Shown piece by piece: positions 748-21,933 of a stretch of DNA of 25,159 bases. The translations under genes were made by a program, and so were the position numbers. Positions within the stretch are counted from its first letter, which is position 1, and the number at the start of each line of letters is the position of its first letter. Under the pieces are notes generated by a model. It was not told the DNA's origin. It saw only the letters and a list, made by a program, of their open reading frames with translations, and ran no database searches. Source of the stretch: a virus; the IMG/VR virus record IMGVR_UViG_3300010885_033876, positions 1 through 25,159 of that record. One strand, given 5' to 3'.

Positions 748-3165
748 TTACTTTATTAAAGTAATTTTTCCTACTGGGCGAATCCGTAAGAAGTCATCTT
801 TCTTAGTTGCTTTGTAGGAGAAAAATAATAGGGAACAATAGTCAAGTTTGTCTTTCAATTCTTCATATTGATCTGAGAACAATGTGACTTCTGATATAGA
901 AGATAAATCTTCGATTGTCAATGTTGCCATTAATTTTCCTTTCGATTTACCACTTTTAATTTGCTGTTCTTTAATATGAGATACCGCAACGAGCAGATTG
1001 CCTTCGTTACTATTTGTTTCATCTATATCCTCTATTTGACTAATTAAAATGCCAGGAGGCGTCTTAGTGATATAGGACAGAGGATGGCGGCTAATAAAGA
1101 ACTTACAATATTCAGATTCCCATTTGACAATTTGAAGTGGGACTTTGTATCCCAGACTTTTCTTGATAGATTCTAGGTCAGGAAAGACAGGCTGTTCTGG
1201 AACTTTGAGTACCAATGGCTTCTTAGGTCTTAGTTCAGAGTAAACCTTCTTACTGTCAGAATCTAGTTGGACTGTAATGACACCAGCTTTTACTTTGGTA
1301 GTCCAGTCATCGAGCAATGCAGGATAAGCATCTAGCTCTTTGTTACGCTCAAAAGCTTGAACTATTCTTGTTTGATAGTTTTCAACCTTTGTATAGTAAT
1401 CAAAGATATCAGAAAGTTTCTCTACAAGCTTAACTCTGTCATATCCAAAACTATCAAAGGCACCAACCTTTGCAAGTATGCTAACAACGCCAGCATTAAT
1501 CTTTGTTCGATTAATTCTAGTAAAGAAGTCAGCCATGCTTGTAAAGGACTTTCGGCCACGAGCCTTCAGTATAAGATCGCTAGCTTTGTTACCAATGCCA
1601 TTGATCATGCCAAGGCCAAATAGGATAGTGTTATCATCCAGCTTAGTAAAACCAATATCACTATTGTTAATGCTAGGTGGAAGAATATTGTATCCCATCT
1701 GCCGATACTCGTTGATATAACGAACCAGTTTCTCTGGCTTACCACTCCTAACAGTCATTAGCGTAAGCATAAAGTCTGTAGGATAGTAAGTTTTAAGATA
1801 TGCATTGAAATATGTAATGAAAGCATAAGCAAGAGCATGACTTTTATTAAATCCATACTCAGCAAATGCTGCAATGATATTCCATATACGAGTTGCTTCG
1901 CTAGTATTAATCTGATGAAGACGTCCACACCCGTCCACAAAAAGTGTGCGATACTCTTCCATTAGAATAGCGTCCTTTTTGCCCATTGCTTTTCTAATCT
2001 TATCAGCTTCTTGTAAGGTTACACCTGCAAGAATTTGACATGCTGCCATAATTTGTTCTTGGTAAATAAGAACACCTCCGGTCTCAGCAAGTATACCATC
2101 AAGTAAGGGATGCAATTTATTTTGAGTCTCTTTAGTTGTCTTGTAATCGATATAGTCTTGGAGAAGACCAGAGTCACGAGGACCAGGACGATTAAGAGCT
2201 GAGAAAACTGCAAGATCCTGAACGCTCTGTGGCTTAAGATCAGCTACAAGCTTTAGGAGATAAGTCTCCTCCATCTGGAATAGGCCAGCAGTAAATCCTT
2301 TATTGATTAATTCAAACACTGCAGGATCATCTACTGGAACTTCTTCCTCTAGCCATTTAAGGGACTTGCCAATACGCTTACAGGTAAGATCATTAATAGT
2401 AAGACAGTCAATTCTAAGGATATCGAACTTAATAAAGTTCATCTTCTCTAGAGTTGGACCTTCCCACTGCGTAAGATTAAACCAGTCTGCGCCTTCAGTC
2501 TTGCTTTTGCGAATTGGAATCATCTGGTCTACTGGACTTGTACCAATTAAAACTGCGCTAGCATGTACGCTGACCTCCTTGGCTTGACCATCGACTGGTC
2601 CGCAAAGACTAAAGATTTCCTCATTAGCTTCTACAACCTTCTTAATGTGCTCACTATTGTCTTCAATTAGCTCTTTGTAAGTTACGTATTTACCACGGTG
2701 ACTTTCAGGCAAACTATCAGCAAGACGTTCTGCGTCAGCAATAGTTCTGTATGATCCATCTGCGTTCTTAAGTAACTTAGTAAAAGCCTTAACACTAGTC
2801 TTAAGAGACCATGGCTTATAAGTTGAGACACGAAGAACACGGTCATGACCATATTTAGTTTGCAGTGCTTTGATTAGATCATCAGCACGGACATTACAAA
2901 AGTCAGTGTCAATGTCTGGACCTTCGCCGTCAACGTTATAAGTTATACGTGAATCAGAATTGTAATTATCAGACAACTTAAGCAAATATAGAATTGCACT
3001 ATTAGACTTATTAGACAATGATTTCTGCGAATCATAAGCATTGTTTATAAATACTAGAGTTTCAGGAGTAAGATACTTAATCTCAAACTCCAAATAGTCT
3101 TTATTAACACCTGGCAACCTTTCCTTGTTAAAGAAAGATCGTATGTTTTCTATAGTAATTGACAT
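748..3165 (-). CDS. dnaE: DNA polymerase III alpha subunit, C-terminal half (catalytic palm, fingers, OB fold)
   Basis: This is the larger part (805 aa) of a bacterial-type replicative polymerase encoded as two genes. The catalytic aspartate motif PDIDTDF is at residues 83-89 and the third acidic site KFDIL at 246-250. Further C-family signatures follow: RPGPRDSG, LIYQEQIMAACQILAG and EYGFNKSHALAYAF. After these come a helix-hairpin-helix stretch (GLGMINGIGNKASDLI) and a C-terminal OB-like domain. The first 82 residues match no normal DnaE segment that I recognise and replace the PHP and early palm region, which the upstream gene carries. I chose the ATG at 3165 over an in-frame start at 3279 because GGAG lies 5 bases before it and it follows the preceding stop by one base. 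No QADMF-type clamp-binding motif was seen. The product should work only in complex with the N-half. Family assignment is firm; subunit assembly is inferred. Confidence 0.95.
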   Translation of the reverse strand: MSITIENIRSFFNKERLPGVNKDYLEFEIKYLTPETLVFINNAYDSQKSLSNKSNSAILYLLKLSDNYNSDSRITYNVDGEGPDIDTDFCNVRADDLIKALQTKYGHDRVLRVSTYKPWSLKTSVKAFTKLLKNADGSYRTIADAERLADSLPESHRGKYVTYKELIEDNSEHIKKVVEANEEIFSLCGPVDGQAKEVSVHASAVLIGTSPVDQMIPIRKSKTEGADWFNLTQWEGPTLEKMNFIKFDILRIDCLTINDLTCKRIGKSLKWLEEEVPVDDPAVFELINKGFTAGLFQMEETYLLKLVADLKPQSVQDLAVFSALNRPGPRDSGLLQDYIDYKTTKETQNKLHPLLDGILAETGGVLIYQEQIMAACQILAGVTLQEADKIRKAMGKKDAILMEEYRTLFVDGCGRLHQINTSEATRIWNIIAAFAEYGFNKSHALAYAFITYFNAYLKTYYPTDFMLTLMTVRSGKPEKLVRYINEYRQMGYNILPPSINNSDIGFTKLDDNTILFGLGMINGIGNKASDLILKARGRKSFTSMADFFTRINRTKINAGVVSILAKVGAFDSFGYDRVKLVEKLSDIFDYYTKVENYQTRIVQAFERNKELDAYPALLDDWTTKVKAGVITVQLDSDSKKVYSELRPKKPLVLKVPEQPVFPDLESIKKSLGYKVPLQIVKWESEYCKFFISRHPLSYITKTPPGILISQIEDIDETNSNEGNLLVAVSHIKEQQIKSGKSKGKLMATLTIEDLSSISEVTLFSDQYEELKDKLDYCSLLFFSYKATKKDDFLRIRPVGKITLIK

Positions 3166-3166
3166 T

Positions 3167-3457
3167 CTAACTCCAGCATTGACGGGCAATAGATTTAAAT
3201 AAGTGTAAAGTTTCTTTACGCTTATGATGTGCATTAGATACTTGGTTATTAACCATAATGTATCTAAAGAATAAAGCAAGTAATATTAAAAAAGGATGCT
3301 TAATAGCCCAGAAGTTCTTCTTGTTAAATATAGACTTAAGAATAAAAGACTCCTTTAGAGATTCTATGCTTTGAGTTTCTGTATTGTAAACAAATTCTTC
3401 TGCAATTGTGTTGCGATAAGGAACCTCTGGCATATCTATTTTTATATTTTTAAGCAT
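3167..3457 (-). CDS. Small membrane-associated protein between the two dnaE halves
   Basis: I do not recognise this 96-residue product. It is probably real. Its ATG overlaps the stop of the dnaE N-half by 8 bases, AAGGA lies 5 bases upstream, and its TAG ends one base before the ATG of the dnaE C-half, so translation of all three is likely coupled. The N-terminal half is polar with acidic residues. A hydrophobic segment at about residues 54-69 (HPFLILLALFFRYIMV) could span or dip into the membrane, and the C-terminus is basic. It contains no LAGLIDADG, GIY-YIG or HNH signature, so it does not look like the homing endonuclease that could have split the polymerase, although it may be a remnant. 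Its position suggests a polymerase accessory or membrane tether, but nothing in the sequence proves that. Confidence 0.6.
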   Translation of the reverse strand: MLKNIKIDMPEVPYRNTIAEEFVYNTETQSIESLKESFILKSIFNKKNFWAIKHPFLILLALFFRYIMVNNQVSNAHHKRKETLHLFKSIARQCWS

Positions 3458-4730
3458 TTAATTCCTTCATATCCTCTGAAAAGTCTAAAGATATTCTTAC
3501 TCGACCAGGATTCAGGAAGCGCTCAAAGAGTAAGCCATGCTTAACAGGATCAAGATGCTTAGCAGTGATTCCAAGTGACCATGAGATCAAAGATCCGCCA
3601 CCAGAACCACGTGCTGGGCCAACGGGTATACCCATACCCTTAGCAAGACTAACATAGTCCTGAACGACAAGGAAATAAGAACTATAACGAGCCTCGTCAA
3701 TGACTTGGAACTCGTATTTAATTCTATCCTTATATGCCTTAGGAACATCCGCCCAGGTAGCTACGCCAAGTCTAGCTATAAGTCCAGCCTTAGCCTTCTT
3801 AAGCAACATTAAGCTTGTGCCTTCCGGAGTAAGACCTTCAAGCTGAAGATTGGGAGCTCTAGTGACTCTTTCAAAGTAGTCACCATCTACAAGATCTGCT
3901 ACATGCTGAGTATTAGTAATTGCTTCGTGTGGCAATTGCCAATCGTCGCATAAGCCCTTAGCAAATTCCGCATCATACATCCAAGCATTGTGGTCTTGGA
4001 CTTCATATGGCATTGTATCTGGAGTCTTATGCATACTCACACACATAACATAGCTACGTAGTTTATACTGATCTTGGTTCTGATGATGTGCATCTGCAGT
4101 AAGGACAAGGGGAATATTCTTGCGTTTACTTAGATCAATTAGATATTGATTATAGCCATATTGCTTTTCAACATTGTTATGCTGAAGCTCAAGGAAGAAG
4201 CTGTCGTCGCCGACTGCCTCTCTAACTTCATCACACCATCTATCAATCTTTGCATGTTCACCCCAGTGCCAGTACTTAAAGCACTGACTACTGATACAAG
4301 TACTAGTAGCAATCAAGCCCTTAGCATGTTGCTTAAACATCTCTAAGTCAATGCGAGGATAACGATAAAAGCCATCCTCATATGAATACTTAGTAAGCTT
4401 CATAAGATTCTTATAGCCTTCTTCATTCTTAGCAAGTAATAAGAAGTGGCCATTGTTAACTGCCTTCTCTGCAACGCCATTCTCTGGCATAAAATCAGAC
4501 TTAGTCTTAGCATCATTAAATGCAAGATAAGTCTCATTGCCAATAATAGGCTTTACATTAGCAGCCCGGCAACCTTTTACAAACTCTGGAATGCCACCCA
4601 TATATCCATGGTCGGTCAAAGCAACTGCATTCATCCCTCTAGACGCAACAATCTTGCCCATTTGATCAGCTGGCTGTAAGCCATCAAGCAATGAATAATA
4701 ACTATGTGCGTGAAGATGTACCATTCCCAT
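3450..4730 (-). CDS. dnaE: DNA polymerase III alpha subunit, N-terminal half (PHP domain and start of palm)
   Basis: This 426-residue protein carries the PHP domain and the first part of the polymerase palm. PHP motifs are HLHAHS at residues 5-10, LLDG at 14-17, TDHG at 40-43, NETYL at 65-69, H95 in GHFLLLAKNEEGYKNL, C145 and TADAHH at 211-216. Together they supply all nine metal ligands known from proofreading PHP domains. The nucleotide-binding loop follows as GPARGSGGGSLISW, then FERFLNPGRV at about 402-411. The protein ends 15 residues later, exactly where a normal DnaE would enter the PDxDxDF catalytic motif. That motif is in the downstream gene at 748-3165. An in-frame TTG at 4760 exists, but I chose the ATG at 4730 because GAGAG lies 6 bases upstream and the protein then begins at the family's usual N-terminus. 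It should pair with the C-half to form one active site. Confidence 0.93.
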   Translation of the reverse strand: MGMVHLHAHSYYSLLDGLQPADQMGKIVASRGMNAVALTDHGYMGGIPEFVKGCRAANVKPIIGNETYLAFNDAKTKSDFMPENGVAEKAVNNGHFLLLAKNEEGYKNLMKLTKYSYEDGFYRYPRIDLEMFKQHAKGLIATSTCISSQCFKYWHWGEHAKIDRWCDEVREAVGDDSFFLELQHNNVEKQYGYNQYLIDLSKRKNIPLVLTADAHHQNQDQYKLRSYVMCVSMHKTPDTMPYEVQDHNAWMYDAEFAKGLCDDWQLPHEAITNTQHVADLVDGDYFERVTRAPNLQLEGLTPEGTSLMLLKKAKAGLIARLGVATWADVPKAYKDRIKYEFQVIDEARYSSYFLVVQDYVSLAKGMGIPVGPARGSGGGSLISWSLGITAKHLDPVKHGLLFERFLNPGRVRISLDFSEDMKELNA

Positions 4731-8179: not shown

Positions 8180-9298
8180 CTAGTCCTTGGTTTCGTATGC
8201 GATTTTGCGCTTACGTGTTAGCGGATAGCGAGCTTCAAAATGATTGACTCCAAGTAGATCACAAAGAGAAGCTCTTGCAGCTGCATCACTTCTAAGTAGT
8301 TCTGCAAGATTATTCCTGCCTTGAACCTTAAGAGCAATAGCAGGAACCTGGAGCCAGGCACCAGCAGCAACGATATGCTTCTGAGCTAGACCCATAGTAA
8401 TAAGCGAGTCAACTCGGTCAAGACCGATACCCCACTTAATACTAATCTCTACCTCGTCCTCTGCACGAGCCGCACCCTGCGCCTTAACAATCTGGACCTT
8501 TCTAAGATTCTCTTTGCCATCACCAGGGATAGGAAGAATCTTGAGACGAAGTCTAGCATAGTAGCGAATAGCCCGGCCACCTGTAGTGATAGTACCGCGA
8601 GCACCCATTGGAGTAATATTAACTCTCATCTGGTTACTCGTAATTAAAGTACAGTCATAGGTCTTGTATGAAGTAGCAAGCCTACCAAGTACCTTAGAGC
8701 TAAGCAAAGCATGCCAGCCAATTGCGCCGTCACCAGCCTCTGCATTATTATCTGCAGACGCAGGAGGACTAAGAGCAGCCCAGCTATCTAATCCAATACA
8801 TGAAAACATACCACTACGAATCAGTTGGTCTAGAAGGGTAAGAGCTTGCTTGCCATTCTGAGGAAGACTATAGACAAATCTTTCGTCGTCCACGGGTACT
8901 CCAAGGTGACGTGCATACTCGGCATCGAAGTTACCTTCCATGTCGATAAATGCAATACCACGTTCTGGAAAAGCCTTAGCAAAGCTAGCTAATGCTTCGT
9001 ACATCAGAGTAGTCTTACCAGACGACTCCTCGCCCGCAATTTCAATAAAGGTGCCACGAGGCCATCCTGCATTCTCACCAAATCCACCAAGCAAACTATC
9101 CAGACAAGGATCACTTGTCGGAACAAAGCTGAATGTAGGTAAGCTGTCCTTGCCAGTGACAAGAACAAGTTCTTCGCCATATTGCTTAATCTTGCTTATC
9201 TTAAAAGCATTAAAAGTTTTAGGATTCCAGGTTACAGCTCCCGGCGTAGCAAAAGAAGATTCTTCTTCTGTTTCCCATTCTGTTTCTTCTAAACTCAT
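8180..9298 (-). CDS. recA: RecA-like recombinase
   Basis: A 372-residue RecA homologue that should form ATP-dependent filaments on single-stranded DNA for strand exchange and recombination-dependent replication or repair. Walker A is GEESSGKTT at residues 89-97. Next come AFIDMEGNFDAEYARHLGV (matching the RecA AFIDAEHALD region), the Walker B-like CIGLDSWAAL and an L1-like loop rich in acidic residues. LITSNQMRVNITPMG and the L2-like ARGTITTGGRAIRYYA complete the core. An N-terminal acidic extension of roughly 25 residues (MSLEETEWETEEESS) is unusual compared with bacterial RecA, and the C-terminus ends basic (LTRKRKIAYETKD) instead of in the usual acidic tail. AAGGTGAT precedes the ATG. The 61-base gap upstream holds a sigma70-like promoter candidate. 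Confidence 0.96.
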   Translation of the reverse strand: MSLEETEWETEEESSFATPGAVTWNPKTFNAFKISKIKQYGEELVLVTGKDSLPTFSFVPTSDPCLDSLLGGFGENAGWPRGTFIEIAGEESSGKTTLMYEALASFAKAFPERGIAFIDMEGNFDAEYARHLGVPVDDERFVYSLPQNGKQALTLLDQLIRSGMFSCIGLDSWAALSPPASADNNAEAGDGAIGWHALLSSKVLGRLATSYKTYDCTLITSNQMRVNITPMGARGTITTGGRAIRYYARLRLKILPIPGDGKENLRKVQIVKAQGAARAEDEVEISIKWGIGLDRVDSLITMGLAQKHIVAAGAWLQVPAIALKVQGRNNLAELLRSDAAARASLCDLLGVNHFEARYPLTRKRKIAYETKD

Positions 9299-9314
9299 AT
9301 ATCACCTTATGATT

Positions 9315-9343
9315 ATTTTAAATAAAATAAAAATCTATAACAA
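9315..9343 (-). promoter_or_regulatory. Candidate sigma70-type promoter upstream of recA
   Basis: On the minus strand TTGTTA (9338-9343; 4 of 6 match to TTGACA) and TAAAAT (9315-9320; 5 of 6 match to TATAAT) are separated by exactly 17 bases, 17-46 bases before the recA ATG. The gap is very AT-rich, so a chance match is possible. It would drive recA, the MoxR and VWA genes and phoH. Confidence 0.3.
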
Positions 9344-9359
9344 TAGGAAAGTTGTATTG

Positions 9360-9557
9360 CTATTCAGTATAAAATAGATCTCTTAAATCCTGTTTAGTAT
9401 ATTTACGCCCGTTAAGATCAATAGATCTGTTTCCTTGCATAAATTCCTTTAGATTATTTTGAAGATCATCTTCTAAGTCTAAAGAGAAAACATCTTTTAA
9501 GATGCGCAAAAGACTCTGCGGATCTGGAATTTTTTCATCTAGTTTAATGTTTGACAT
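9360..9557 (-). CDS. Small protein of unknown function between nrdJ and recA
   Basis: A 65-residue acidic, mostly helical protein that I do not recognise. The start at 9557 is chosen because AGGGA lies 5 bases upstream and it lies 7 bases after the nrdJ stop; an upstream in-frame ATG at 9632 would overlap nrdJ. The sequence has a DPQSLLRILKDVFSLDLEDD helix and a C-terminal LNGRKYTKQDLRDLFYTE segment. That segment reads like a small helix-turn-helix or recruitment motif, but this is only an impression. It is followed by an AT-rich gap with a candidate promoter for recA. Confidence 0.65.
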   Translation of the reverse strand: MSNIKLDEKIPDPQSLLRILKDVFSLDLEDDLQNNLKEFMQGNRSIDLNGRKYTKQDLRDLFYTE

Positions 9558-9564
9558 GTATTCC

Positions 9565-11493
9565 CTACTTGACAGGACAGAATCCACCTTCGCAATCGCT
9601 AGAGTCAACACTCGCGTCAAATGAAATACCATTGATTAACTTAGTTGTTCTAACCAGTTCATTATAGACATCTTCTGTGATTTCTTCAAGAGGCGCTTGC
9701 TTAAAACCATGCTCAGAATGTAATAAGAATGAAAGACTTTTATGATTTAAAGTATAGTTCTCACGAAGATATTCTTTAACCTGATCAAGTTCTTCTTTCC
9801 TATAGTAGATAGTGCAAGATACACTATTGTCTGACCAATCTTCCTGTAGTCTTTTAACAACTGCAAGCTGATCAAGAGCTGTCATGTCTCTAGCTAGAAG
9901 TGTACCTTCTGGGTAAGAGAATGGAAACTCAGCCACCATAGTTGAATAGTCAAGGCTACCGTCAAAGTTTTCCTGATACTCAATCTTATAATTGTGTGAA
10001 CGCACTACTTCAATCAATGGATGATTAGCAGCAATACGAATACGACGAATAAGATGTCTAGCATAAGCAGGATGTGCACCCGGTGTAACACCAGGAAGCA
10101 AACTAAGTGTACCGCTAGGTTTTACGGTAGTAAGTTTAACGCTAACAGGGAATCCCTTTGCAGCGCTATACTCAACATCGTAAGCACGAAGCTCGCCATA
10201 AACATCCCTGAGCCAAGACTTTTGTTCATCTGTAGCTTGAAGATATCCAGTGATACCAATACCCATACGCATATGTTTATTGACAATCTCTTCTGTCTCT
10301 GAGTGGTGGCAATGTAAAGCCAAGCTATGCTTGTTAATACGGTAAAGTAGCTTACATACGTCAGCTAATTCAGCTGGACTTGTTATGTTAGGAAGAAATA
10401 CTTCTGCCAAACAGCAAGTCTCAAAGTTAGCAAGACTCTGTTCTGCGCATGGGTTATAGCCCATGACAGCAGGATCAGGATACTCTGTTTCGCCAAGGCG
10501 ACCCATAGCACGCGAAAGCTTAAGGTTAATTAAACCATAAGGCTCTCCCTTGCCTTCATAACCATCCCAGAACATATCTGGAAGGTCATTGATATCGTCA
10601 CAAGCTACACTATTATTAGACATTGCACGCCAGCTTGGGATAGTACCCAAGTCCCAACGCTTAGCAAGTAAGAACTCAATATCGTCACAGTCACCGATGG
10701 CGATCTGTGCGCTACGTCGGACGTTACCAGCAACTACAATGCTGCCAATAATGTTCATGATATCTAGACAATCAACACTGCGTAATTGCTTACCAGCGCG
10801 CCTCTCTAGAACCTTACCAATATTAGCTATACCTTCACATAAAATCTCAGGTCCGCTAGCTACGCCACCAAAGCCTTTGATTGGCGCGCCCTTACCACGA
10901 ATTAGCTGAGTGCTAAATGTAAATGTATTCTTCTTGTCTGCAAGGAATGCAGCCTTAAGAGTCTTAGCTAATAGTGCAACCCAACCTTCTCTTGTGTCAG
11001 ACACAATGAAGTCAGAGTCTCCTTGATCTCTGCGGGTTGGGCTCTTAAAGTTCTTACGAACCTTAGGAAGTTTATTAATGTGCTCACGCTGAATATTGTA
11101 GCCAACGCCACAGCCAAGCATAAGCATATCCATTGTCCAAGTGAATGGACGAACAGGTCCGTCTACAACAGTAAAAGCACAGTTCTGTAAGCTAGGAAGA
11201 CCTAAGTCCTTAACAGTTCTAGTGCCTAGTTGCCACAGAAAGCGGCCAGCAACGGTACCTTTGAGCTCAAGCATATAAGTCCTAAGCCTAGCTTTCTCAT
11301 AGGCCGTAAAACCCACCTTAAGCTGCTTCTCACTAGCATTAAGAACACGATCTACGGTGTCAGTCCATTCCTCTGTTGGGCCATTAAGATCAGTCTCACT
11401 AAGCCTTCTAGCATAGGTTCTCTTGTAAGTTAGATAGCCTACAGTGCTCCAAGGTGTAACTATATCTTTTGTAAAATTATCAATATTTGGCAT
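9565..11493 (-). CDS. nrdJ: Adenosylcobalamin-dependent (class II) ribonucleoside-triphosphate reductase
   Basis: A 642-residue monomeric class II reductase that converts ribonucleoside triphosphates to deoxyribonucleotides using B12 radical chemistry, giving an oxygen-independent dNTP supply for phage replication. Active-site residues are visible: C105 in LQNCAF, N347, C349 and E351 in NPCAEQ, and C360 in ETCC. Relative to the Lactobacillus enzyme, C349 and C360 have the 11-residue spacing of Cys408 and Cys419. The C-terminal redox pair C634/C639 (CEGGFC) matches the CX4C tail. Other family motifs are GCGVGYNI, GNVRRSAQIA and TVKPSGTLSLLPG. The protein is about 100 residues shorter than the 739-residue Lactobacillus enzyme, but all catalytic residues are present. 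GAGAG lies 6 bases before the ATG. The next gene (9360-9557) starts 7 bases after the stop. Confidence 0.95.
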   Translation of the reverse strand: MPNIDNFTKDIVTPWSTVGYLTYKRTYARRLSETDLNGPTEEWTDTVDRVLNASEKQLKVGFTAYEKARLRTYMLELKGTVAGRFLWQLGTRTVKDLGLPSLQNCAFTVVDGPVRPFTWTMDMLMLGCGVGYNIQREHINKLPKVRKNFKSPTRRDQGDSDFIVSDTREGWVALLAKTLKAAFLADKKNTFTFSTQLIRGKGAPIKGFGGVASGPEILCEGIANIGKVLERRAGKQLRSVDCLDIMNIIGSIVVAGNVRRSAQIAIGDCDDIEFLLAKRWDLGTIPSWRAMSNNSVACDDINDLPDMFWDGYEGKGEPYGLINLKLSRAMGRLGETEYPDPAVMGYNPCAEQSLANFETCCLAEVFLPNITSPAELADVCKLLYRINKHSLALHCHHSETEEIVNKHMRMGIGITGYLQATDEQKSWLRDVYGELRAYDVEYSAAKGFPVSVKLTTVKPSGTLSLLPGVTPGAHPAYARHLIRRIRIAANHPLIEVVRSHNYKIEYQENFDGSLDYSTMVAEFPFSYPEGTLLARDMTALDQLAVVKRLQEDWSDNSVSCTIYYRKEELDQVKEYLRENYTLNHKSLSFLLHSEHGFKQAPLEEITEDVYNELVRTTKLINGISFDASVDSSDCEGGFCPVK

Positions 11494-11544
11494 TTTAAAC
11501 TCTCTTAAAATAAACGGGAATAGAAGCGGGTAAGGATTATCTTA

Positions 11545-12057
11545 TCACTGGGTTTCGAAGCCCTCTGATCCTTTACCAAAAGCTTTTAACTCACTATTGA
11601 CTGAGTAAGCTACGCTCTCCAGTACCCTTCTCATACCTATAAGTTGGCCCTGAATTCTTTCAAAGAAATCTACTAGAAAGCTATGTAAAACTTCCTTTGT
11701 ATTATCGTCATCAAACTCCACGTCAAGACTTGCCTGTAACTGATCTACAGTAAACTTAGGATTATCTTTCTTAAGTTGCAAAAGTTTTGCAGCTTTATAA
11801 GACTTGGTAGCAGAGTGATGAAGATCTCTGGCCAGAACGGCTTGACTGTGCTTGTGATTCACATCACTAAGTAAGTCCGCAATACGTCTAAATTGCCTAT
11901 AGACGTCCTTAACAGTCATATCATCGGGCAAACTTACCCGATAATACTCAGCCCATTCTGTCAGAGTCTTCTTATTGAAAGAAATAGTATTGACTAGGTT
12001 GATATCAGTTACGCAGCTTTTCTTTGCAGACTCAACTTTATCTTTATCTATTTCCAT
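11545..12057 (-). CDS. Hypothetical helical protein upstream of nrdJ
   Basis: A 170-residue protein with no recognised family. It is predominantly helical and charged, with long amphipathic segments (VYRQFRRIADLLSDV; FLVDFFERIQGQLIGMRRVL) and one acidic cluster (EFDDDNTKE). AAGGAG lies 7 bases before the ATG, and it starts 10 bases after the SpoVG-like gene stop, so the two are likely translated from one message. A 51-base gap separates it from nrdJ; I see no clear terminator there. By context it may belong to the single-strand-handling or dNTP module, but no motif supports a specific role. Confidence 0.75.
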   Translation of the reverse strand: MEIDKDKVESAKKSCVTDINLVNTISFNKKTLTEWAEYYRVSLPDDMTVKDVYRQFRRIADLLSDVNHKHSQAVLARDLHHSATKSYKAAKLLQLKKDNPKFTVDQLQASLDVEFDDDNTKEVLHSFLVDFFERIQGQLIGMRRVLESVAYSVNSELKAFGKGSEGFETQ

Positions 12058-12067
12058 CAGTTACTCC

Positions 12068-12487
12068 TTAGTCAGTTTCCCACTCGTCTGACGTGCTAGC
12101 TTTAGCAGTAACTTTGGCAGGAGCGGGCTTCTTTGCAAGGTATGCGTCAGGAACACTGCTCTTCGCAGCTGGCTTACCTGCAGCAGGCTTAGCAGCTGAC
12201 GATGCCGAGCGTGTCTGGCCACCCGTCTGACTCTCATATTCATCAACAAGCGCCTGCTTAATATCAAGCAAGAACTGGCCACTTTCCTTAGGAGCAATAA
12301 TCGTATCCTCATATGCCTCCCCGCGCTTAGCGCTAGGAGCACCAGCAAATAGACCGTTCTTACCCTTAACTACCTTCCATCCCTTCAGGATAAGATCACC
12401 ATCGTCGGTCACAAGAGTGACATCAGCCATAGCGACAACAGGACCAGTAGGATTACTAAGGGGATTGACACGAACTTTAATTTCCAT
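12068..12487 (-). CDS. SpoVG-like domain protein with basic low-complexity linker and acidic tip
   Basis: A 139-residue protein. Residues 1-86 resemble SpoVG: an N-terminal strand (EIKVRVNPL), MADVTLVTDDGDLILKGWKV, then GKNGLFAGAPSAKR at 42-55, which matches the family signature xGxNGLFVAMPSKR. YEDTIIAP and QALVDEYES follow, where SpoVG has FRDIAHP and a C-terminal helix. SpoVG proteins bind DNA and RNA. Residues 90-130 are alanine/lysine/serine/proline-rich, and the last residues are acidic (DEWETD). That layout is like a single-strand-binding protein with a disordered linker and interaction tip, so this may be a phage single-strand-binding or recombination protein. The 5' end of the gene overlaps a small membrane-protein gene. 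Domain assignment is by eye. Confidence 0.75.
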   Translation of the reverse strand: MEIKVRVNPLSNPTGPVVAMADVTLVTDDGDLILKGWKVVKGKNGLFAGAPSAKRGEAYEDTIIAPKESGQFLLDIKQALVDEYESQTGGQTRSASSAAKPAAGKPAAKSSVPDAYLAKKPAPAKVTAKASTSDEWETD

Positions 12488-12626
12488 AATTTACCTCTTT
12501 GATTTTGGCAAGTTTACTTTCGTTGTACTTGGCCAGCAAGTTAAAACCAATCTCAAAAATGATTGGTGTAGCAATAATAATAGCCTGTTTAACGGCATAT
12601 TTATTTTTTAATAAATAATAATACAT
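12477..12626 (-). CDS. Small single-pass membrane protein (49 aa)
   Basis: A short gene starting at the ATG at 12626. AAGAG lies 6 bases before the start, and the stop overlaps the first 11 bases of the SpoVG-like gene, the kind of coupling seen across this window. The product has an N-terminal lysine/tyrosine-rich stretch, one hydrophobic segment at about residues 15-32 (QAIIIATPIIFEIGFNLL) and a basic/acidic tail ending in KEVNYGN. No family was recognised. It accounts for most of the 163 bases between 12488 and 12650, which otherwise look empty. Confidence 0.55.
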   Translation of the reverse strand: MYYYLLKNKYAVKQAIIIATPIIFEIGFNLLAKYNESKLAKIKEVNYGN

Positions 12627-12650
12627 GTAATACTCTTAAATAATAATTAG

Positions 12651-12989
12651 TTACTCAGTCTCAATATCTGACTTGAATGATTCAACTTCACTAACTACAG
12701 TAAAATCTCCTGATCCTACTAGACTACCGATTTGAAAAGCAACAAAAAGTAGAAGACCTGCGGCATTAAGTGTCTTCTCTCCACCAAGAACGCCCAGTGC
12801 AGTAAGCATAGGATCATTCTGAGCTAGAAGAGTCTCAATCATAAGCATGACTGCCTTCTTGCCTTTCGTATTCTCAATGCCTTCAGGTTGGTTGATCTTA
12901 TCAACAATTGCCTTAAGCAAAGAAGCAAAAGGAATTTCCTCTGAGTCTTTGTTTAGGATTTTAATCTTGACATCGTTTTCTTGTTCCAT
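12651..12989 (-). CDS. Hypothetical protein with hydrophobic C-terminal segment
   Basis: A 112-residue protein that I do not recognise. The start overlaps the preceding stop as TAATG, and AGAGGG lies just upstream. The N-terminal half is charged and helical (LLKAIVDKINQPEGIENTKG). Residues 47-58 and 77-90 are hydrophobic (NAAGLLLFVAFQIGSLV), but GGEK and acidic stretches between and after them make a soluble helical bundle as likely as a membrane protein. It sits in a run of small early genes between the Whirly-like gene and the SpoVG-like gene. Confidence 0.7.
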   Translation of the reverse strand: MEQENDVKIKILNKDSEEIPFASLLKAIVDKINQPEGIENTKGKKAVMLMIETLLAQNDPMLTALGVLGGEKTLNAAGLLLFVAFQIGSLVGSGDFTVVSEVESFKSDIETE

Positions 12990-13537
12990 TAGCCCTCTTT
13001 TTTATAAGTTATGAATAAGTTGCCATTATTATGTGAAAAATTATATGGAATACCATGTTGATCCATTGCTTTCATTCCCATTGCTTGGAAGAAATATGGA
13101 TTATATCCGTACGGATCTTTGAATCTACTTAAGTGGTTTCGAAGCTCTCCAGCTACATATGGACTATTAGTATAGATTCTAAGTTTTGTGCCAGTCATTA
13201 GGCTATTAAATCCTAAGCCACTAGTATACTGCTTTAGTGCAAGACTTGCAAGCAAAAAAGTAGTTTTAGTGTAGATATCGTAGCCTTCAGGCAGCAACTC
13301 TTTATACTTATAAACAAAGAAATCTGTCTTGTCCATATCTATATCTGGACCTTCGGTAGACCCGTATCTATAGACAACCATTTGCTCTACATCATCAAAG
13401 AATAGACCAATATGGGTCCAGAGGCCGTGCCTATATGGAAATCCAAGTCTGGGATTAAAGCCATATCCAAAGGAAAAAGCTATAGTCCACATATAAGTAC
13501 GAATCTTATCTAATACTTTATAGTAAAAATTCTTCAT
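12989..13537 (-). CDS. Hypothetical protein, aromatic-rich
   Basis: A 182-residue protein with no recognised family. It is rich in Tyr, Phe and Gly (FGYGFNPRLGFPYRHGLW near the N-terminus; YGYNPYFFQAMGMKAM near the C-terminus). There is no signal peptide, and the hydrophobic N-terminal patch (MWTIAFSFGYGF) is too short and polar to be a sure membrane segment. It ends in ITYKKEG, with the stop overlapping the next start (TAATG). The gene lies 8 bases after the Whirly-like gene. Function unknown. Confidence 0.72.
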   Translation of the reverse strand: MKNFYYKVLDKIRTYMWTIAFSFGYGFNPRLGFPYRHGLWTHIGLFFDDVEQMVVYRYGSTEGPDIDMDKTDFFVYKYKELLPEGYDIYTKTTFLLASLALKQYTSGLGFNSLMTGTKLRIYTNSPYVAGELRNHLSRFKDPYGYNPYFFQAMGMKAMDQHGIPYNFSHNNGNLFITYKKEG

Positions 13538-13545
13538 AGTAGTTC

Positions 13546-14073
13546 TTACTTCTTTGGATCTCTTTCACGCTGAAGATCAAGATGTAAGCCGGTCATATAG
13601 ATACTAGCTGTACGACACAGGTTAATGAAGATATCCATCTCACCTGAGGTCATTGAGGTAGAGATACTATCACCAGCCTCATTGCGCATCGTAAGCATAT
13701 AAGTACCAAGGTACTTGTCTACGCCACTCTGCATTGTAAGCTTCTTGACGTTATCCTCGCTAGCGCCAGGCGGCACGTGAATAAGGTTTAAGGTCTGACG
13801 CTGTGAGGTGTCAACCCAACCATTCATTACACCATTATAGAAACTAAGAATCTGATAGATATCGTTAATGCCTACGGCAAAAACAATCTTATTACCCCAG
13901 TCAAAGGTATTATGACCACCTTCGTTCTTCCCACCAGTTGCACGAGCAAACTGGAGATATACTGCACCCTCCTTTTCTACTTGCTTACCGTACTCACTAT
14001 CTTTAGTGGTTACAGGAATGTAAGAGATCTGAAGGGCACTACTCTTTTTAACAATCTGAAACTGCTTTGACAT
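13546..14073 (-). CDS. Candidate Whirly-like single-strand DNA-binding protein
   Basis: A 175-residue protein whose motif order resembles the Whirly fold of plant and kinetoplastid nucleic-acid-binding proteins. A beta-rich start (QIVKKSSALQISYIP) leads to GAVYLQFARATG at 36-47, then FDWGNKIVFAVGINDIYQILSF at 57-78. The Whirly counterpart of that last stretch is YDW-x2-K-x2-FALS followed by a helix. Next come LIHVPP, KKLTMQ at 110-115, YLGTYMLTMRN at 121-131 and a C-terminal GEMDIFINLCRTASIYMTG helix. Whirly proteins bind ssDNA as tetramers, so this could be a phage single-strand-binding protein. AAGGTGA lies 5 bases before the ATG. The resemblance is by eye and distant; the function is an inference. 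Confidence 0.7.
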   Translation of the reverse strand: MSKQFQIVKKSSALQISYIPVTTKDSEYGKQVEKEGAVYLQFARATGGKNEGGHNTFDWGNKIVFAVGINDIYQILSFYNGVMNGWVDTSQRQTLNLIHVPPGASEDNVKKLTMQSGVDKYLGTYMLTMRNEAGDSISTSMTSGEMDIFINLCRTASIYMTGLHLDLQRERDPKK

Positions 14074-14094
14074 TACTTCACCTTATTCTATTGT

Positions 14095-14565
14095 TTATTC
14101 TTGAGGAAATAATTCCCACTTGTCTAGTATTAAATTCTTGTTTTCCAATTTCCAATTAAATGCTTCAGATAACTTCTGAAGATAGAAGAATAAAACTTCC
14201 TCATCTTCAAAGAAATCAGTATAAACGAATTGCAATTCCTCTGTAGAAACTACATCCTTGTCAGAAGCATCCTTTTGACTGTTATAGACAAAAGTAAATA
14301 ATTCTTTATATAACGTACTATTAACAACAAGGAGAGGTTCATCCTTAGCTAAGGATTTAAACTCTTTTGAGTTTGCTGTGAATACTCCCTTACAGTAGCA
14401 AGTCAATTTGAATTTGTCAAGATCTTCTCGCTCCCAAATCATATTAAAACCTATTGCTTTAAAATCATTGTCGGCTTTAACAAGAATGGGAGTTTCCAAT
14501 GTTTGTAATTCTGAGATACTCTTTAGTTCAAAGTCTGCTTTAGTAGCGGTAAATCTCTGAGGCAT
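14095..14565 (-). CDS. Hypothetical protein
   Basis: A 156-residue acidic protein that I do not recognise, with a mix of strands and helices (FKLTCYCKGVFTANS; EEVLFFYLQKLSEAFNW). No motif stands out; the two cysteines in CYC do not make a zinc site. The start at 14565 has AAGGA 7 bases upstream but overlaps the previous gene by 43 bases, more than usual here. It lies 21 bases upstream of the Whirly-like gene. Confidence 0.68.
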   Translation of the reverse strand: MPQRFTATKADFELKSISELQTLETPILVKADNDFKAIGFNMIWEREDLDKFKLTCYCKGVFTANSKEFKSLAKDEPLLVVNSTLYKELFTFVYNSQKDASDKDVVSTEELQFVYTDFFEDEEVLFFYLQKLSEAFNWKLENKNLILDKWELFPQE

Positions 14566-14999
14566 TTAATATTCCTTCTATTAGTTCCATTACTTTCAGA
14601 TAAATATCTACCAGAAAGTATTTTCGGGTGTTTAATAAGAGCTTGGAATTGTTTAATACGATTTAAATTTGAAAAATGCTCTAACCAATTTTCCATAAGT
14701 ACTGGCTCAGTAATAAAAATATCCAGTGAAGCCTTAGGTTCATTTTGCTCTATCTTTATCTCTGGAAGTATAGATAGTAAAAGATAAGTCTTATAGTCTA
14801 AAGATTTAAGAATTTTTGAATTAGATTCCTGAGACAATGTATTGATTAAAAGACATTCTTCCTCAGAGATTTCAGAAGGTACCTTCTCTTCCCCTTGAGG
14901 AAAGGAATCTACTTTGTCTTGAAGTGTTTTAACTTTGTCACTTAAACGTTCTTCCAAATTATTAAGAAAATTAAGTAACAAGTTCTTAACTTTCCCCAT
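14523..14999 (-). CDS. Hypothetical protein with N-terminal coiled-coil
   Basis: A 158-residue protein without a recognised family. The first 35 residues form an amphipathic, coiled-coil-like helix (NLEERLSDKVKTLQDKVDSF), followed by an acidic linker. A leucine-rich middle (SLDYKTYLLLSILPEIKI) and a basic C-terminus follow. Its start overlaps thyX by 14 bases and its last 43 bases overlap the next gene. The final residues are dictated by that overlap and may be less conserved. Confidence 0.65.
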   Translation of the reverse strand: MGKVKNLLLNFLNNLEERLSDKVKTLQDKVDSFPQGEEKVPSEISEEECLLINTLSQESNSKILKSLDYKTYLLLSILPEIKIEQNEPKASLDIFITEPVLMENWLEHFSNLNRIKQFQALIKHPKILSGRYLSESNGTNRRNIKCLRDLPLLKQTLN

Positions 15000-15873
15000 T
15001 GGCTATCCTATTAAACTTCTCTTGAAACTCTAACAATTCGCCTTTGCTTAGTTTTGTTCCTTGACTTGCAGCATTAAAACTCTCACTGCCAGTGAAGGGA
15101 ATAAGATAGCGTAGAATATCTATCTCTTCTTTACTGAAAGAAACTCCACCTTGCCAGTAGTCTTCGAATGCTTCCCAAGTCCAAGGACAATGTAGCTTTA
15201 CAAACTCTGCAATTGCCTCTGCAAATACGCGAATTTCATACTGAGCATGAGGATCCAGGCGCAGTCTAAGCATCTTAAGAAGATTAAGCAAGTCACACTT
15301 CCACACAACACGTGTATAGAGATTGACAGGAAGTACCATGCGGGCTTGTTCACGGCTAACACCAGCTTCAATCAACTGTTGATAAAGCTTATAAGCTTCA
15401 TCAGTCTGATGATTCATAACTGCTGTTGCTGTTTCTTTAGGACCAATGAAAGGATTGAAATCTCCTTCTGCGCTGCCTTGCTTGTTAGTAGTGCTTTGAG
15501 CTCTGAGAGTATCAGGTTCATAGAATACATCTTCCATGACACTGTAACGTGCACTCTCCTCGTTAAGACTAGCAGTTCTATGACGAACTAGCTGGCGCAT
15601 AACAAAGATAGGCAAACGCATCTCAAACTTAAACTCTACCATCTCAAATGGACTAGTATGCCAATGACGCATAAGATAACGTAGCAATTGCTTATCTGAC
15701 TGTTTACGAGTAGTACCTGACTGGTAACTAACTCTAGCAGCATCAATAATTGCATAGTCAGCAATGTTAGTATTAAATGAAAGATCCTCTGCATCAGCAT
15801 GAGGCATAACATCAATTAGTTTAACATAACCATGATCAAGACATGGAATTAAATCATTAGTTCTTTCCAGCAT
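14986..15873 (-). CDS. thyX: Flavin-dependent thymidylate synthase
   Basis: A 295-residue ThyX, which methylates dUMP to dTMP using FAD, NADPH and methylene-tetrahydrofolate. The diagnostic ThyX motif RHRxxSxNExSxRY is present at residues 97-110 as RHRTASLNEESARY. FEMVEFKFEMRLPIFVMRQ comes before it. After it come QARMVLPVNLYTRVVWKCDLLNLLKML and LRLDPHAQYEIR, which are typical of the catalytic core. An in-frame ATG at 15900 exists, but the ATG at 15873 has GGAG 7 bases upstream. With NrdJ it gives the phage its own dNTP and dTTP supply. It overlaps its upstream neighbour by 17 bases and its downstream neighbour by 14, so it is part of an operon. It is somewhat longer than the usual 220-250 residues, mainly by an insertion after the motif and by C-terminal residues. 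Confidence 0.96.
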   Translation of the reverse strand: MLERTNDLIPCLDHGYVKLIDVMPHADAEDLSFNTNIADYAIIDAARVSYQSGTTRKQSDKQLLRYLMRHWHTSPFEMVEFKFEMRLPIFVMRQLVRHRTASLNEESARYSVMEDVFYEPDTLRAQSTTNKQGSAEGDFNPFIGPKETATAVMNHQTDEAYKLYQQLIEAGVSREQARMVLPVNLYTRVVWKCDLLNLLKMLRLRLDPHAQYEIRVFAEAIAEFVKLHCPWTWEAFEDYWQGGVSFSKEEIDILRYLIPFTGSESFNAASQGTKLSKGELLEFQEKFNRIANGES

Positions 15874-16588
15874 CCTTTTTCTCCGACAAATGGGTAACAT
15901 CCATTACTGGGGTTTTATTTGATAAATCATTATAAGCTTGGCCAATATTAAAGATAGTAGTTAATTCGCTTATAAGCTCACCAGTTTCTTTTGTACCAAC
16001 CTTCTTATAGACCATATAGTGTGTTCTATAGGAAAGATTAGACTTGTTTTCAATTACTAGCTTAACAAAAGCAGAGTAATCACTGGCAGATGAAATGCGG
16101 ATTTCTTTATCTTCTTGTAAATCCCATAAAGTATATTTTGTATATATGTTATAGGTATCAAGGCCATTCATCACACTAGGAAAATCAAACTTCTTAGCAG
16201 TTTTAAAAAGCTCAAGTTCTTCTGGATCATCAATGTATTCTTCTTCTGCATTCTGCAATGCGCCGATTACATTTCTATAACCCAAGAAGATGTCAACAAT
16301 CCCTGCTAGCAAGCTTGCATAGGGAACATAAACAGTTTCATTTTCACTAGCTGCAAATTGAAACCTTTCATGTAGATCATCTACTTCAATATCTTTTGAA
16401 AGAGTATCGCTAGTCAATGCTTCGTTGGGAAATTGAATATAAATTTCCTTAGGATTAACATAATCAACAAAGATAATCTCTCGCTCCCAGTAATAGATCG
16501 TTTTAATTACCTTATTAAGAGTAGATAAAAGAGTGTATGTAACACCAGCAACACCTAGTAATGCAATTATTAGTGTTAGCAAAGCCAT
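15857..16588 (-). CDS. Hypothetical membrane-anchored protein
   Basis: A 243-residue protein with one clear N-terminal membrane helix (ALLTLIIALLGVAGVTYTLL, residues 2-21) and a large soluble remainder of mixed strand and helix. A tract of acidic residues (NAEEEYIDDPEELELF) lies near the middle. The start at 16588 overlaps the previous stop as TAATG and has GAAGAAG upstream; an in-frame start at 16636 has no such support. No family was recognised. The anchor-plus-domain layout suggests a protein held at the inner membrane with its bulk on one side, but topology cannot be fixed from sequence alone. It sits immediately upstream of thyX. Confidence 0.72.
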   Translation of the reverse strand: MALLTLIIALLGVAGVTYTLLSTLNKVIKTIYYWEREIIFVDYVNPKEIYIQFPNEALTSDTLSKDIEVDDLHERFQFAASENETVYVPYASLLAGIVDIFLGYRNVIGALQNAEEEYIDDPEELELFKTAKKFDFPSVMNGLDTYNIYTKYTLWDLQEDKEIRISSASDYSAFVKLVIENKSNLSYRTHYMVYKKVGTKETGELISELTTIFNIGQAYNDLSNKTPVMDVTHLSEKKDAGKN

Positions 16589-16965
16589 TACTTCTTCACA
16601 TGCTCGAAGTATCCTGACCCATTGCAGATGTAACAAAGAGTTGTCGACTCAGGAGTAACATTAGGATCAATTCCTTCTCCGTAACATGCATGACAAACGT
16701 TGTTATACTTACGATAAAGGAAAGCACACTCTGCAGCTGCAGGCGTCTTCTTTACTGCGTTGTATACGAACTGCCAAAGCTGAAGGCCCCACTCCCATGC
16801 ATAGTAAGCGTATTCGGCTTCTGCATTGGTCTCATATGTTCCCTTCTCATATACAGAACTTGAGAAAGGAAGAGTAGCAACAACAACCCTATCAGGATCG
16901 TTAATGCTTGTAAGAGAAACCCGCATGGTAAAGTCAGGAAAAGACAAGAGTCTCCTTCTTGCCAT
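16588..16965 (-). CDS. Protein with DnaJ-like CxxCxGxG zinc motifs (possible downstream part of a frameshifted gene)
   Basis: A 125-residue reading frame whose C-terminal 35 residues carry two CxxCxGxG repeats, CHACYGEG at 91-98 and CYICNGSG at 111-118, as in the zinc domain of DnaJ. It should bind one zinc ion. Upstream residues are beta-rich, then helical (EYAYYAWEWGLQLWQFVYN). The start is uncertain. The ATG at 16965 lacks a ribosome site, while a TTG at 16947 has AAGGAG 4 bases upstream. The frame also overlaps the upstream gene (16752-17129) by 214 bases, so it may instead be reached by a -1 frameshift from that gene. A zinc-binding domain is firm; function is unknown. Confidence 0.68.
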   Translation of the reverse strand: MARRRLLSFPDFTMRVSLTSINDPDRVVVATLPFSSSVYEKGTYETNAEAEYAYYAWEWGLQLWQFVYNAVKKTPAAAECAFLYRKYNNVCHACYGEGIDPNVTPESTTLCYICNGSGYFEHVKK

Positions 16966-17129
16966 TCTGCTACTACTGCCATAGAACCAAGTGGTTCTTT
17001 CTCAGATGTAGTAATTGTTTCATTGTTATAATGCCAACGATTATCTTTCGTATCTACTAGGATGCTCTTTGGATCAAACTTAATTTCAAAATTCTCAAAA
17101 AGATTTGCAAAATCAATTCTTTTAGTCAT
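16752..17129 (-). CDS. Hypothetical protein overlapping the zinc-motif gene (possible first part of one frameshifted gene)
   Basis: A 125-residue frame. The first 58 residues look like ordinary protein (NRWHYNNETITTSEKEPLGS, then MAVVAEWQEGDS). The remainder (LTILIGLLLLLFLSQV and a Met-rich, low-quality tail) reads like a shadow of the zinc-motif gene in another frame, although it could be a membrane segment. The zinc frame continues the beta-rich character of this N-terminus, so I suspect a single protein made by -1 frameshifting near 16938-16957, or a one-base sequence error. It follows a terminator at 17150-17172 and so probably begins a new unit or depends on readthrough. No family was recognised. 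Confidence 0.5.
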   Translation of the reverse strand: MTKRIDFANLFENFEIKFDPKSILVDTKDNRWHYNNETITTSEKEPLGSMAVVAEWQEGDSCLFLTLPCGFLLQALTILIGLLLLLFLSQVLYMRREHMRPMQKPNTLTMHGSGAFSFGSSYTTQ

Positions 17130-17149
17130 GTATTCACTATGTATTAGGT

Positions 17150-17172
17150 AAAAAATAAACCCTTTCGGGCTT
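17150..17172 (-). terminator. Intrinsic terminator after the 648-residue orphan gene
   Basis: On the minus strand AAGCCC-GAAA-GGGTTT forms a 6-bp stem (one G-T pair) with a GNRA tetraloop, followed directly by TATTTTTT. It lies 13 bases after the stop of the gene at 17185-19131. A perfect 12-base palindrome, CTTAATATTAAG (17170-17181), overlaps its upstream edge. Confidence 0.85.
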
Positions 17173-17184
17173 AATATTAAGATA

Positions 17185-19131: not shown

Positions 19132-19171
19132 TTGTACCCCTTTGGTGAGTAATTGGAAGAAAAATCCAAAC

Positions 19172-19191
19172 AAAAAATGCGCGTTAGCGCA
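19172..19191 (-). terminator. Intrinsic terminator after the uracil-DNA glycosylase gene
   Basis: On the minus strand TGCGC-TAAC-GCGCA forms a perfect, GC-rich 5-bp stem with a 4-base loop, followed immediately by TTTTTT. It begins 12 bases after the uracil-DNA glycosylase stop and precedes the 648-residue gene. Confidence 0.88.
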
Positions 19192-19202
19192 CAGGATTAT
19201 CT

Positions 19203-20404: not shown

Positions 20405-20856
20405 TATAGAATTCTATTGACTAGGCTTGAGTAGATCTTCCGATCATTTCTTTGAGTCGAGGTTCTAAGTGAGTCAAAGTCCATAACCTGGGTTTGACCA
20501 AAAGACCAGTCAGACAAATCGGCAATCTCTAGATAAAGATTAACTTTATTGCAATACTTCTTACCACTATCAGTATAGTAATCAAACCAGCTACTAACGT
20601 AAGACAAAGTCTCTACATCTGAATTGCTTGTAGGATAAATGCTAATAGCTGCATCTCTAGTAATAGTATCCTCAGTAGGATGAACAGCTGCCACAAGATC
20701 TAAAGTAGAATTGTGTAGCTCTTCGTGTTCATACTTACCAAAATCTTCTTCTTCATCACTGTCAATTTTAAGTTCATCAGGAATAAAGACTGTAAGCGTA
20801 TCTAGATCTTCATCGGCGTGATCGTCAATAAAGGCATTAATGTCAAATTCTTCCAT
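20404..20856 (-). CDS. Hypothetical acidic protein
   Basis: A 150-residue, strongly acidic protein. The first 50 residues are dense in Asp/Glu (DSDEEEDFGKYEHEELH) and could mimic DNA or be disordered. The rest has beta-like stretches (CNKVNLYLEIADLSDW). It has no known motif. It starts one base after the IMPDH/GMPR-like gene stop and ends overlapping the next GTG start. DNA mimicry is only a possibility suggested by charge. Confidence 0.72.
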   Translation of the reverse strand: MEEFDINAFIDDHADEDLDTLTVFIPDELKIDSDEEEDFGKYEHEELHNSTLDLVAAVHPTEDTITRDAAISIYPTSNSDVETLSYVSSWFDYYTDSGKKYCNKVNLYLEIADLSDWSFGQTQVMDFDSLRTSTQRNDRKIYSSLVNRIL

Positions 20857-20857
20857 T

Positions 20858-21931: not shown

Positions 21932-21933
21932 TT

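Follow-up and report, generated by a model that had tools for sequence, protein, structure and literature searches.

The window, meaning the whole 25,159-nucleotide stretch of viral DNA that was analysed, carries a C-family DNA polymerase (DnaE) as two genes on its minus strand, between positions 748 and 4730. An earlier note, made from the sequence alone, had described a DnaE broken within the palm, and the sequence agrees: the N-half ends with FERFLNPGRV followed by 15 residues (RISLDFSEDMKELNA), and the C-half, whose ATG lies at 3163-3165 and whose stop codon ends at 748, is separated from it by 284 nt. The locus contains the following features.

3450..4730, minus strand: DnaE N-half, 426 aa from its ATG, with a PHP domain and the N-terminal part of the palm including the GS loop (sequence, Pfam).
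3591..3620, minus strand: GS nucleotide-binding loop GPARGSGGGS, N-half residues 371-380 (sequence).
3453..3500, minus strand: N-half tail, VRISLDFSEDMKELNA, which pairs with the PDxDxDF strand of intact DnaE and is without the aspartate pattern.
3167..3457, minus strand: 96-aa ORF between the N-half and the C-half, for which searches of Pfam and PHROG gave no match.
3171..3174, minus strand: Shine-Dalgarno-like GGAG, with 5-nt spacing to the C-half ATG (sequence).
748..3165, minus strand: DnaE C-half, 805 aa, with an extension, the catalytic palm, fingers, HhH and an OB-like end.
2920..3165, minus strand: N-terminal extension of the C-half, 82 residues, apparently a decayed palm segment without the GS loop.
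2899..2919, minus strand: metal-binding motif PDIDTDF, C-half residues 83-89 (sequence), which aligns with the PDIDTDF at residue 462 of 3e0d_A.
2422..2424, minus strand: third catalytic aspartate, D248, in KFDILRID (alignment to PDB DnaE).

The ribosome site that the earlier note gave to the C-half is the GGAG at 3171-3174, and the 82 residues before PDIDTDF are there as well. The 96-aa ORF was absent from that note. Its ATG overlaps the N-half stop (ATGCTTAA), it encodes a hydrophobic stretch and evolves fast, and distant relatives have other ORFs in its place. In Pfam the N-half matches PHP and positions 5-109 of the 260 positions of PF07733, while the C-half matches positions 101-259 of the same family, the fingers family PF17657 and HHH_6; the families above cut-off are PF02811, PF07733 (both halves), PF17657 and HHH_6, and DnaE structures in the PDB are matched too. 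OB-fold matches were found over C-half residues of about 701-805 in PDB structure searches. Both features that mark membership of DnaE, the GS loop and PDxDxD, are thus present, on different polypeptides. All three catalytic aspartates sit on the C-half, where the position matching D248 is one that we take to be catalytic.

Relatives with the same split were sought and found: 34 other viral contigs carry both halves with the same break, at identities down to about 25-35%. The six nearest contigs with both halves (L003-L008) share the break, with C-half identity of 91-100% and, in L005-L007, N-half identity of 95-96%; in a seventh near relative (L028/L036) the contig end cuts the locus. Since the break is common to the nearest and the distant contigs, it is no sequencing error, which had been named as one way in which the reading could fail. 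The separation of the GS loop and PHP domain from the metal-binding aspartates also held across the collected set, which consists of loci already classed as split and includes near-duplicate contigs: the GS loop is present in 35 of 35 N-halves and 0 of 38 C-halves, and PDxDxD in 0 of 35 N-halves and 37 of 38 C-halves, the 38th being interrupted by a group I intron.

A profile scan gave 62 loci, among which 23 are palm-split with the extension, 33 are intact, one is split at the GS loop (L073), one is split between PHP and palm (L088), and four (L036, L050, L084, L089) were left outside these classes. In the palm-split loci examined, the distance from the N-half stop to the motif ranges from 251 to 4,300 bases, and the genes lying between the halves differ from lineage to lineage. 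The 82 residues, which the earlier note did not recognise as such, form a conserved family across 38 other C-halves; a query with the extension only picked up 29 viral loci, in all 29 of which the ORF carrying the extension is without the N-half. In an alignment of 19 N-half rows, 22 of 78 palm positions are invariant, against 33 of 332 before the palm. The palm is therefore the most conserved part of the N-half and is not decaying. Both the N-half and the C-half are under purifying selection, with omega of 0.03-0.04 both in the N-half and in the C-half outside the extension; the extension itself gave 0.09 and 0.27 in the two pairs where omega was calculable.

The split rows fall into two clades in the trees, plus L091 in the N tree. 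A single clade of split rows was merely not rejected (p-AU 0.404) and appeared in 26% of bootstrap trees; the split may have a single origin. The 27-row tree omits L005, L006, L041, L050, L091 and several intact or otherwise split rows, and the 40-row trees include most of these if the half is long enough, with L091 in the N tree only.

Among named phages, residues 1-106 of the window's C-half had no match in 50,697 records at E <= 1. Queries from clade B matched 105 and 73 named-phage records, with 0 and 1 of these covering 80% of the query, and 34 of 40 and 39 of 40 of the matches listed begin at the motif or slightly ahead of it. The two records with the matches that reach furthest into the extension, MT836290 and MT835501, encode intact polymerases, and this split was not found in any named phage among the matched records inspected. 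A pattern search of cellular genomes gave 42 matches and no relatives.

The extension and the tail were compared with the palm of intact polymerases. When the extension without its motif (18 rows) was aligned to a profile of 28 intact DnaE with local hhalign, it matched the part of the palm that runs from the YEL-type helix to ALGIT and lies a little ahead of the motif, with an E-value of 0.0016, and 0 of 200 column shuffles reached this score. Each clade on its own hit the same palm stretch, with E 0.096 for the 5 rows of clade A and E 0.009 for the 12 rows of clade B. The hhalign probability was low despite these E-values, at 16-31% for the full set and 0.6-19% for the subsets. In MAFFT the extensions from 14 C-half rows fell on the N-half palm, a placement that the gap cost may have helped; one alignment included the read-through translation of L011 (N-half, intergenic, C-half). 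The N-half tail, which had been thought to look like a degraded form of the metal-binding motif, indeed aligns onto PDxDxDF of intact polymerases, and in tblastn the N-half match overlaps the start of the C-half match on intact polymerases such as MT836213 and MT835885. At the profile level there is moderate evidence that the extension is homologous to the palm segment that bears the GS loop. Each half, then, seems to retain a degenerate version of the half-palm that its partner supplies.

Structure prediction gave a different picture. In two AlphaFold2 models searched against the PDB the extension was mostly not placed on the palm: alignments to DnaE/PolC chains start before model residue 70 in 3 of 16 rows in one search and again in 3 of 16 rows in another, there with rmsd of 8.7-11.4. 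A search of viral models gave 24 matches at E <= 0.001, most with rmsd above 9, and those with names are DNA polymerases or a phage G protein. The models tell against the extension occupying the place of the palm helices.

Other recognised polymerases are absent from the contigs examined, which are linear, up to 184 kb long and possibly incomplete. PolA was not found in any of 12, nor PolB in any of 14, distinct related contigs, and the fingers domain occurs once per contig in 11 of 11. A second complete replicative polymerase, which would have spoken against the split pair as the replicase, was likewise not seen on these contigs.

We think it probable, from the sequence comparisons, that the two genes encode two subunits of one replicative C-family polymerase with a composite active site, and that they arose by duplication and complementary loss. 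The N-half would supply the PHP domain together with the palm part that holds the GS loop and FERFLN and grips the incoming nucleotide. From the C-half would come the metal-binding aspartates along with the fingers, HhH and OB-like domains, such that an active site forms only when both halves meet. An intact dnaE would have been duplicated before the split lineages diverged, after which the metal site was lost from one copy, which retained the nucleotide loop, and the nucleotide loop was lost from the other, which retained the metal site. The C-half extension and the N-half tail would then be decayed copies of the partner's half of the palm, both retained as an interface, and are probably docking surfaces now. 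Group I introns and split inteins would have broken the same gene further at a later time. The fullest form of this reading, in which the pair is an obligate heterodimer made by duplication and reciprocal decay and the sole recognised replicase of a deep clade of large phages, where group I introns and split inteins then broke the gene further, has in our judgement about an even chance of being right. If true, two genes, each missing the motif that the other keeps, build one replicative active site between them, and it becomes testable how an essential single-chain enzyme turns into a heterodimer. The pair would also be a naturally two-part C-family polymerase in which the GS loop and the metal site can be dissected biochemically, and a gene in which the order in time of an old fission, of group I introns and of split inteins could be worked out.

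The earlier note had instead suggested an old insertion, with a mobile element (homing endonuclease, intron or intein) once splitting dnaE before PDxDxDF; the extension would then be newly acquired sequence. It was right in that such elements do occur in this gene in relatives. Group I introns were found in four of eight other loci scanned, with one at the PDID motif itself (L108), relatives have a split intein at FADY|C, another DnaE site, and the variable genes between the halves fit an insertion as well. Splits of T4-type gene 43 and of nrdA have been linked to inserted elements (PMC2988022). In the window, however, no group I or II intron turned up, either over its whole length at the gathering threshold or in a permissive scan of 2600-3900. 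No relic of an intein was found at the palm break: with an N-intein profile built from nine relatives, the control L073 gave E 5.8e-7, while the 18 extensions and the 8 tails of N-halves that were tried all gave E 0.2 or worse, and no NCBIfam intein family was found for four N-halves and four C-halves (from the window, L037, L051, L052 and L072). One locus with a break near the same site, L012, has a tail that is intein-like by eye, and it gave E 2.4 and no NCBIfam intein family. Given these results, together with the varying intervening genes and the relation of the extension to the palm, duplication with complementary loss is favoured, and an old insertion seems unlikely.

It is improbable that the C-half is an autonomous polymerase with an altered nucleotide pocket and the N-half merely a PHP proofreading or scaffold subunit. 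A conserved N..NS-LLY segment of the extension does stand in the place of the GS-loop helix. Against this reading, the GS pattern is missing from 38 of 38 C-halves, and the GS loop of the N-half and the helix that follows it are strongly conserved, which is not expected of a loop that is not used. It is very improbable that the two genes are a remnant, non-functional or accessory, in a phage that uses its host's replicase or an unrecognised polymerase. The low omega, the conservation across a deep clade and the lack of PolA and PolB on the contigs searched speak against it; in its favour are the possible incompleteness of the contigs, a beta-clamp match in just 1 of 8 contigs (below cut-off) and DnaB-domain matches above cut-off in 4 of 9.

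Two polypeptides sharing one active site would be unusual for a replicase, as the earlier note held, but the arrangement has precedents (PMC7824862, PMC2988022). As described in PMC7824862, the minimal DNA polymerase III alpha of group 2.2 jumbo phages is split at this same boundary and, as here, has its NTP-binding N part and its Mg2+/template-binding C part on separate proteins. Their version is a minimal core without other Pol III domains, whereas the window pair keeps PHP, HhH and OB-like domains; their genes are distantly located, not neighbours as in the window; they have a family B polymerase alongside, which was not seen on the possibly incomplete contigs here; and the decayed partner segment that each half seems to keep here is a difference from them. 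According to PMC2988022, gene 43 is split in Aeromonas phages 25 and 44RR (43A/43B) and nrdA in phage Aeh1, and the 43A/43B products of phage 25 reportedly purify together and show polymerase activity. These too are phage enzymes made as two polypeptides, but gene 43 is a family B polymerase and nrdA a ribonucleotide reductase, and their splits involve an inserted endonuclease gene or untranslated sequence, with decayed overlapping copies unmentioned in the passages on them. Searches of the open-access literature turned up no full-length DnaE divided within the palm whose halves keep decayed, overlapping segments. Phage polymerases in two polypeptides are already known, and the palm-split pair is a variant of that arrangement.

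Cyanobacterial DnaE is likewise encoded by two genes, split at another site than here, and trans-splicing joins its halves; the window has no interruption at that site (FAEYGFNKSHA). This split-intein DnaE is mentioned in PMC3919608. The actinophages Rachella, Suzy, Weiss13 and Trina also have DnaE in two genes, with a break between PHP and palm, and unlike the window they carry the N-half-type palm segment and the aspartate region together on the second protein.

The earlier note had described a DnaE polymerase divided within the palm, and this was confirmed: the division is no error and recurs in relatives. The window, a viral contig of 25,159 bp, encodes the following in this region:

4730 to 3450, minus strand: N-half, with the PHP domain plus the N-terminal part of the palm of a C-family polymerase, as far as FERFLNPGRVRISLDFSEDMKELNA
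3457 to 3167, minus strand: middle ORF of 96 aa, overlapping the stop of the N-half
3165 to 748, minus strand: C-half, the remainder of the polymerase, with 82 residues (the extension) and then PDIDTDF

A GGAG site precedes the C-half start. When aligned to solved DnaE, the match of the N-half stops at the residues just before the PDIDTDF motif, and both that motif and the third aspartate lie in the C-half. The Pfam domain PF07733 is shared out between the halves, the N-half matching its positions 5-109 and the C-half its positions 101-259.

The three-ORF arrangement is repeated in six contigs, the longest of 176 kb, whose C-halves are 91-100% identical, and the split recurs in distant loci as well, which together exclude a sequencing error. 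A profile search with the N-half gave 62 loci, classed as 23 palm-split with the extension, 33 intact, one split at the GS loop, one split between PHP and palm, and four unresolved. The extension alone, queried with the catalytic motif removed, matched 29 viral loci and no cellular locus; in all 29 the ORF with the extension lacked the N-half, and 25 had a separate N-half in the same locus. Among contigs classed as split, the GS loop was found in 35/35 N-halves and 0/38 C-halves, and PDxDxD in 0/35 N-halves and 37/38 C-halves, counts that are conditional on loci picked beforehand as split and include near-duplicate contigs (e.g. L041/L042, L044/L045, L046/L086, L125-L127). In the 38th C-half a group I intron breaks PDxDxD at the motif. 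Apart from the window, 34 contigs show both halves.

Omega was calculated with our own Nei-Gojobori script among the window and its close relatives L006 and L007. The N-half, and likewise the C-half minus the extension, gave 0.03-0.04; the final 44-45 N-half codons taken alone gave 0.05-0.06. For the extension, two pairs gave 0.09 and 0.27, and the remaining pair was saturated. Conservation within the N-half is highest in the palm part (22/78 positions invariant vs 33/332 before it, in 19 rows). Eleven related contigs have one fingers domain apiece, and among distinct related contigs, which are linear and maybe incomplete, PolA was found in 0/12 and PolB in 0/14. A DnaB-type domain matched 9/9 contigs, over cut-off in 4, and discriminates little since the control matched all 14 genomes. 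The two genes are most likely a conserved C-family replicase with one composite active site.

The extra residues of the C-half do not look foreign when aligned. Their pattern, D(F/Y)L-(F/Y)E ... N-x-x-NS-(I/L)LLY-(T)G-L-(T/S)D ... PDID, parallels YEL ... GRGSAAGSL-AYALGIT-D ... PDIDIDF of the intact DnaE palm. A profile of 18 extensions (motif removed) matched a profile of 28 intact DnaE at that palm stretch with E 0.0016, a score reached by 0/200 column shuffles, and the reversed extension profile gave no match (E 0.79, one column). Run separately, the extensions of the two clades of palm-split loci matched the same palm location (E 0.096 and 0.009). The hhalign probability was low, 16-31% for the full set and 0.6-19% for the subsets, so homology of extension and palm is taken as moderately supported. 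Pairwise tblastn reached into the extension in a few DnaE records, namely Pseudomonas phage Y1, Corynebacterium phage Zion, MT835501 and MT836290; the last two were inspected and their polymerases are intact. The N-half tail aligns onto the motif strand; in the larger clade, most rows conserve it as (G/A/S)ATPLIF or a near variant. With the extension resembling palm and the tail resembling the motif strand, both halves apparently retain a decayed form of their partner's contribution.

In AlphaFold2 models of the whole C-half (mean pLDDT 81, pTM 0.69) and of residues 1-262 only (pLDDT 76, pTM 0.45), the extension forms short helices, after which comes a poorly predicted region at about 74-80. 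In each of two structure searches, alignments with DnaE/PolC chains start before residue 70 in just 3/16 rows. The monomer models therefore do not display the extension packed as palm, which tells against the decayed-palm reading. They would fit an extension displaced by the N-half, but an inaccurate model or another fold would account for them just as well.

Palm-split rows form two clades in trees, with locus L091 separate in the N tree. The trees do not recover one clade, and a single clade was not rejected (p-AU 0.404, 27 rows); the common break point and homologous extension argue for a single origin. The interpretation in the earlier note was partly supported: the GS loop and the metal-binding aspartates lie on separate polypeptides, and mobile elements strike dnaE in relatives. 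An old insertion fixed as two subunits was not supported as the origin, and no intron or intein was detected at the window's break. Taken with the rest of the origin evidence, that absence favours duplication with complementary loss over fixation of an insertion as the more probable route. Group I introns (RF00028, above gathering score) occur in 4/8 scanned loci besides the window, and further breaks involve inteins:

L108, 7001-7216: group I intron in the dnaE C-half, at the broken PDID catalytic motif
L109, 7183-7511: group I intron in the dnaE C-half
L120, 3896-4175 and 5197-5460: two group I introns in the dnaE C-half
L125, 6876-7198: group I intron in the dnaE C-half
L011, 6649-9208: split intein between FADY and CFNKSHS, a second dnaE break
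L073, 5872-10797: DnaE split at the GS loop (GPGRG then C...; ...VHN then SASG)

The FADY break lies at the site of the cyanobacterial DnaE split intein. This intein is above the NCBIfam cut-off in L011 and L040 (N-intein TIGR01445, E 1e-12 and 1.1e-8; C-intein TIGR01443 in L011, E 0.0034, barely above), and is visible by eye in L039-L041, L044 and L046-L049. In L011 the intein halves are separated by other ORFs. L073 has an intein-like N part whose TIGR01445 match falls short of the cut-off, and a DUF7487 gene separates the parts. A further C-half break, after ...RRAMG/RKAVG, is present in L103, L119, L109 and L120; group I introns lie at this break in L109 and L120, and none reached the gathering threshold there in L103 and L119. 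The break in L012 (5501-9093), near the palm motif, has a different tail, a short C-half head and no intein match, and is possibly a separate, independent split.

PMC7824862 describes a split Pol III alpha in jumbo phages of group 2.2: the enzyme is minimal, its NTP-binding and Mg2+/template-binding parts are separate proteins from genes far apart, and a PolB accompanies it. The cut position is the same as in the window, whereas the window polymerase is not minimal, its genes adjoin, and PolB was not found on its related contigs, which may be incomplete. With two described features absent and PolB not found, the window system was not filed under this type; by analogy it may work like it. According to PMC2988022, the two products of the split gene 43 in phage 25 purify together and show polymerase activity, so a phage replicase is able to function in two pieces. 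The covered parts of PMC3919608 and PMC12926913, surveys of bacterial enzymes, contain no comparable phage split. Named actinophages with a two-gene DnaE are broken between PHP and palm, unlike the window.

The middle ORF (window 3167-3457) contains a hydrophobic stretch. It is homologous to those of L006 and L007 at 31-34% identity with saturated sites, vs about 91-96% for the polymerase halves, and distant relatives have other ORFs in its place. Large cargo can fit between the halves: L072 has a C-5 cytosine methylase gene there (9565-11181, minus strand), and L046 an 844-aa ORF with no Pfam match (8669-11203). In L011, L048, L051, L052 and L072 the space between the halves holds ORFs of 123-538 aa on the opposite strand, among them the L072 methylase. 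Nearby genes at window 8180-22449 (Pfam) are nucleotide-metabolism and repair genes: RecA-like, B12-type ribonucleotide reductase, ThyX, UDG-superfamily, IMPDH/GMP reductase and AdoMet decarboxylase.
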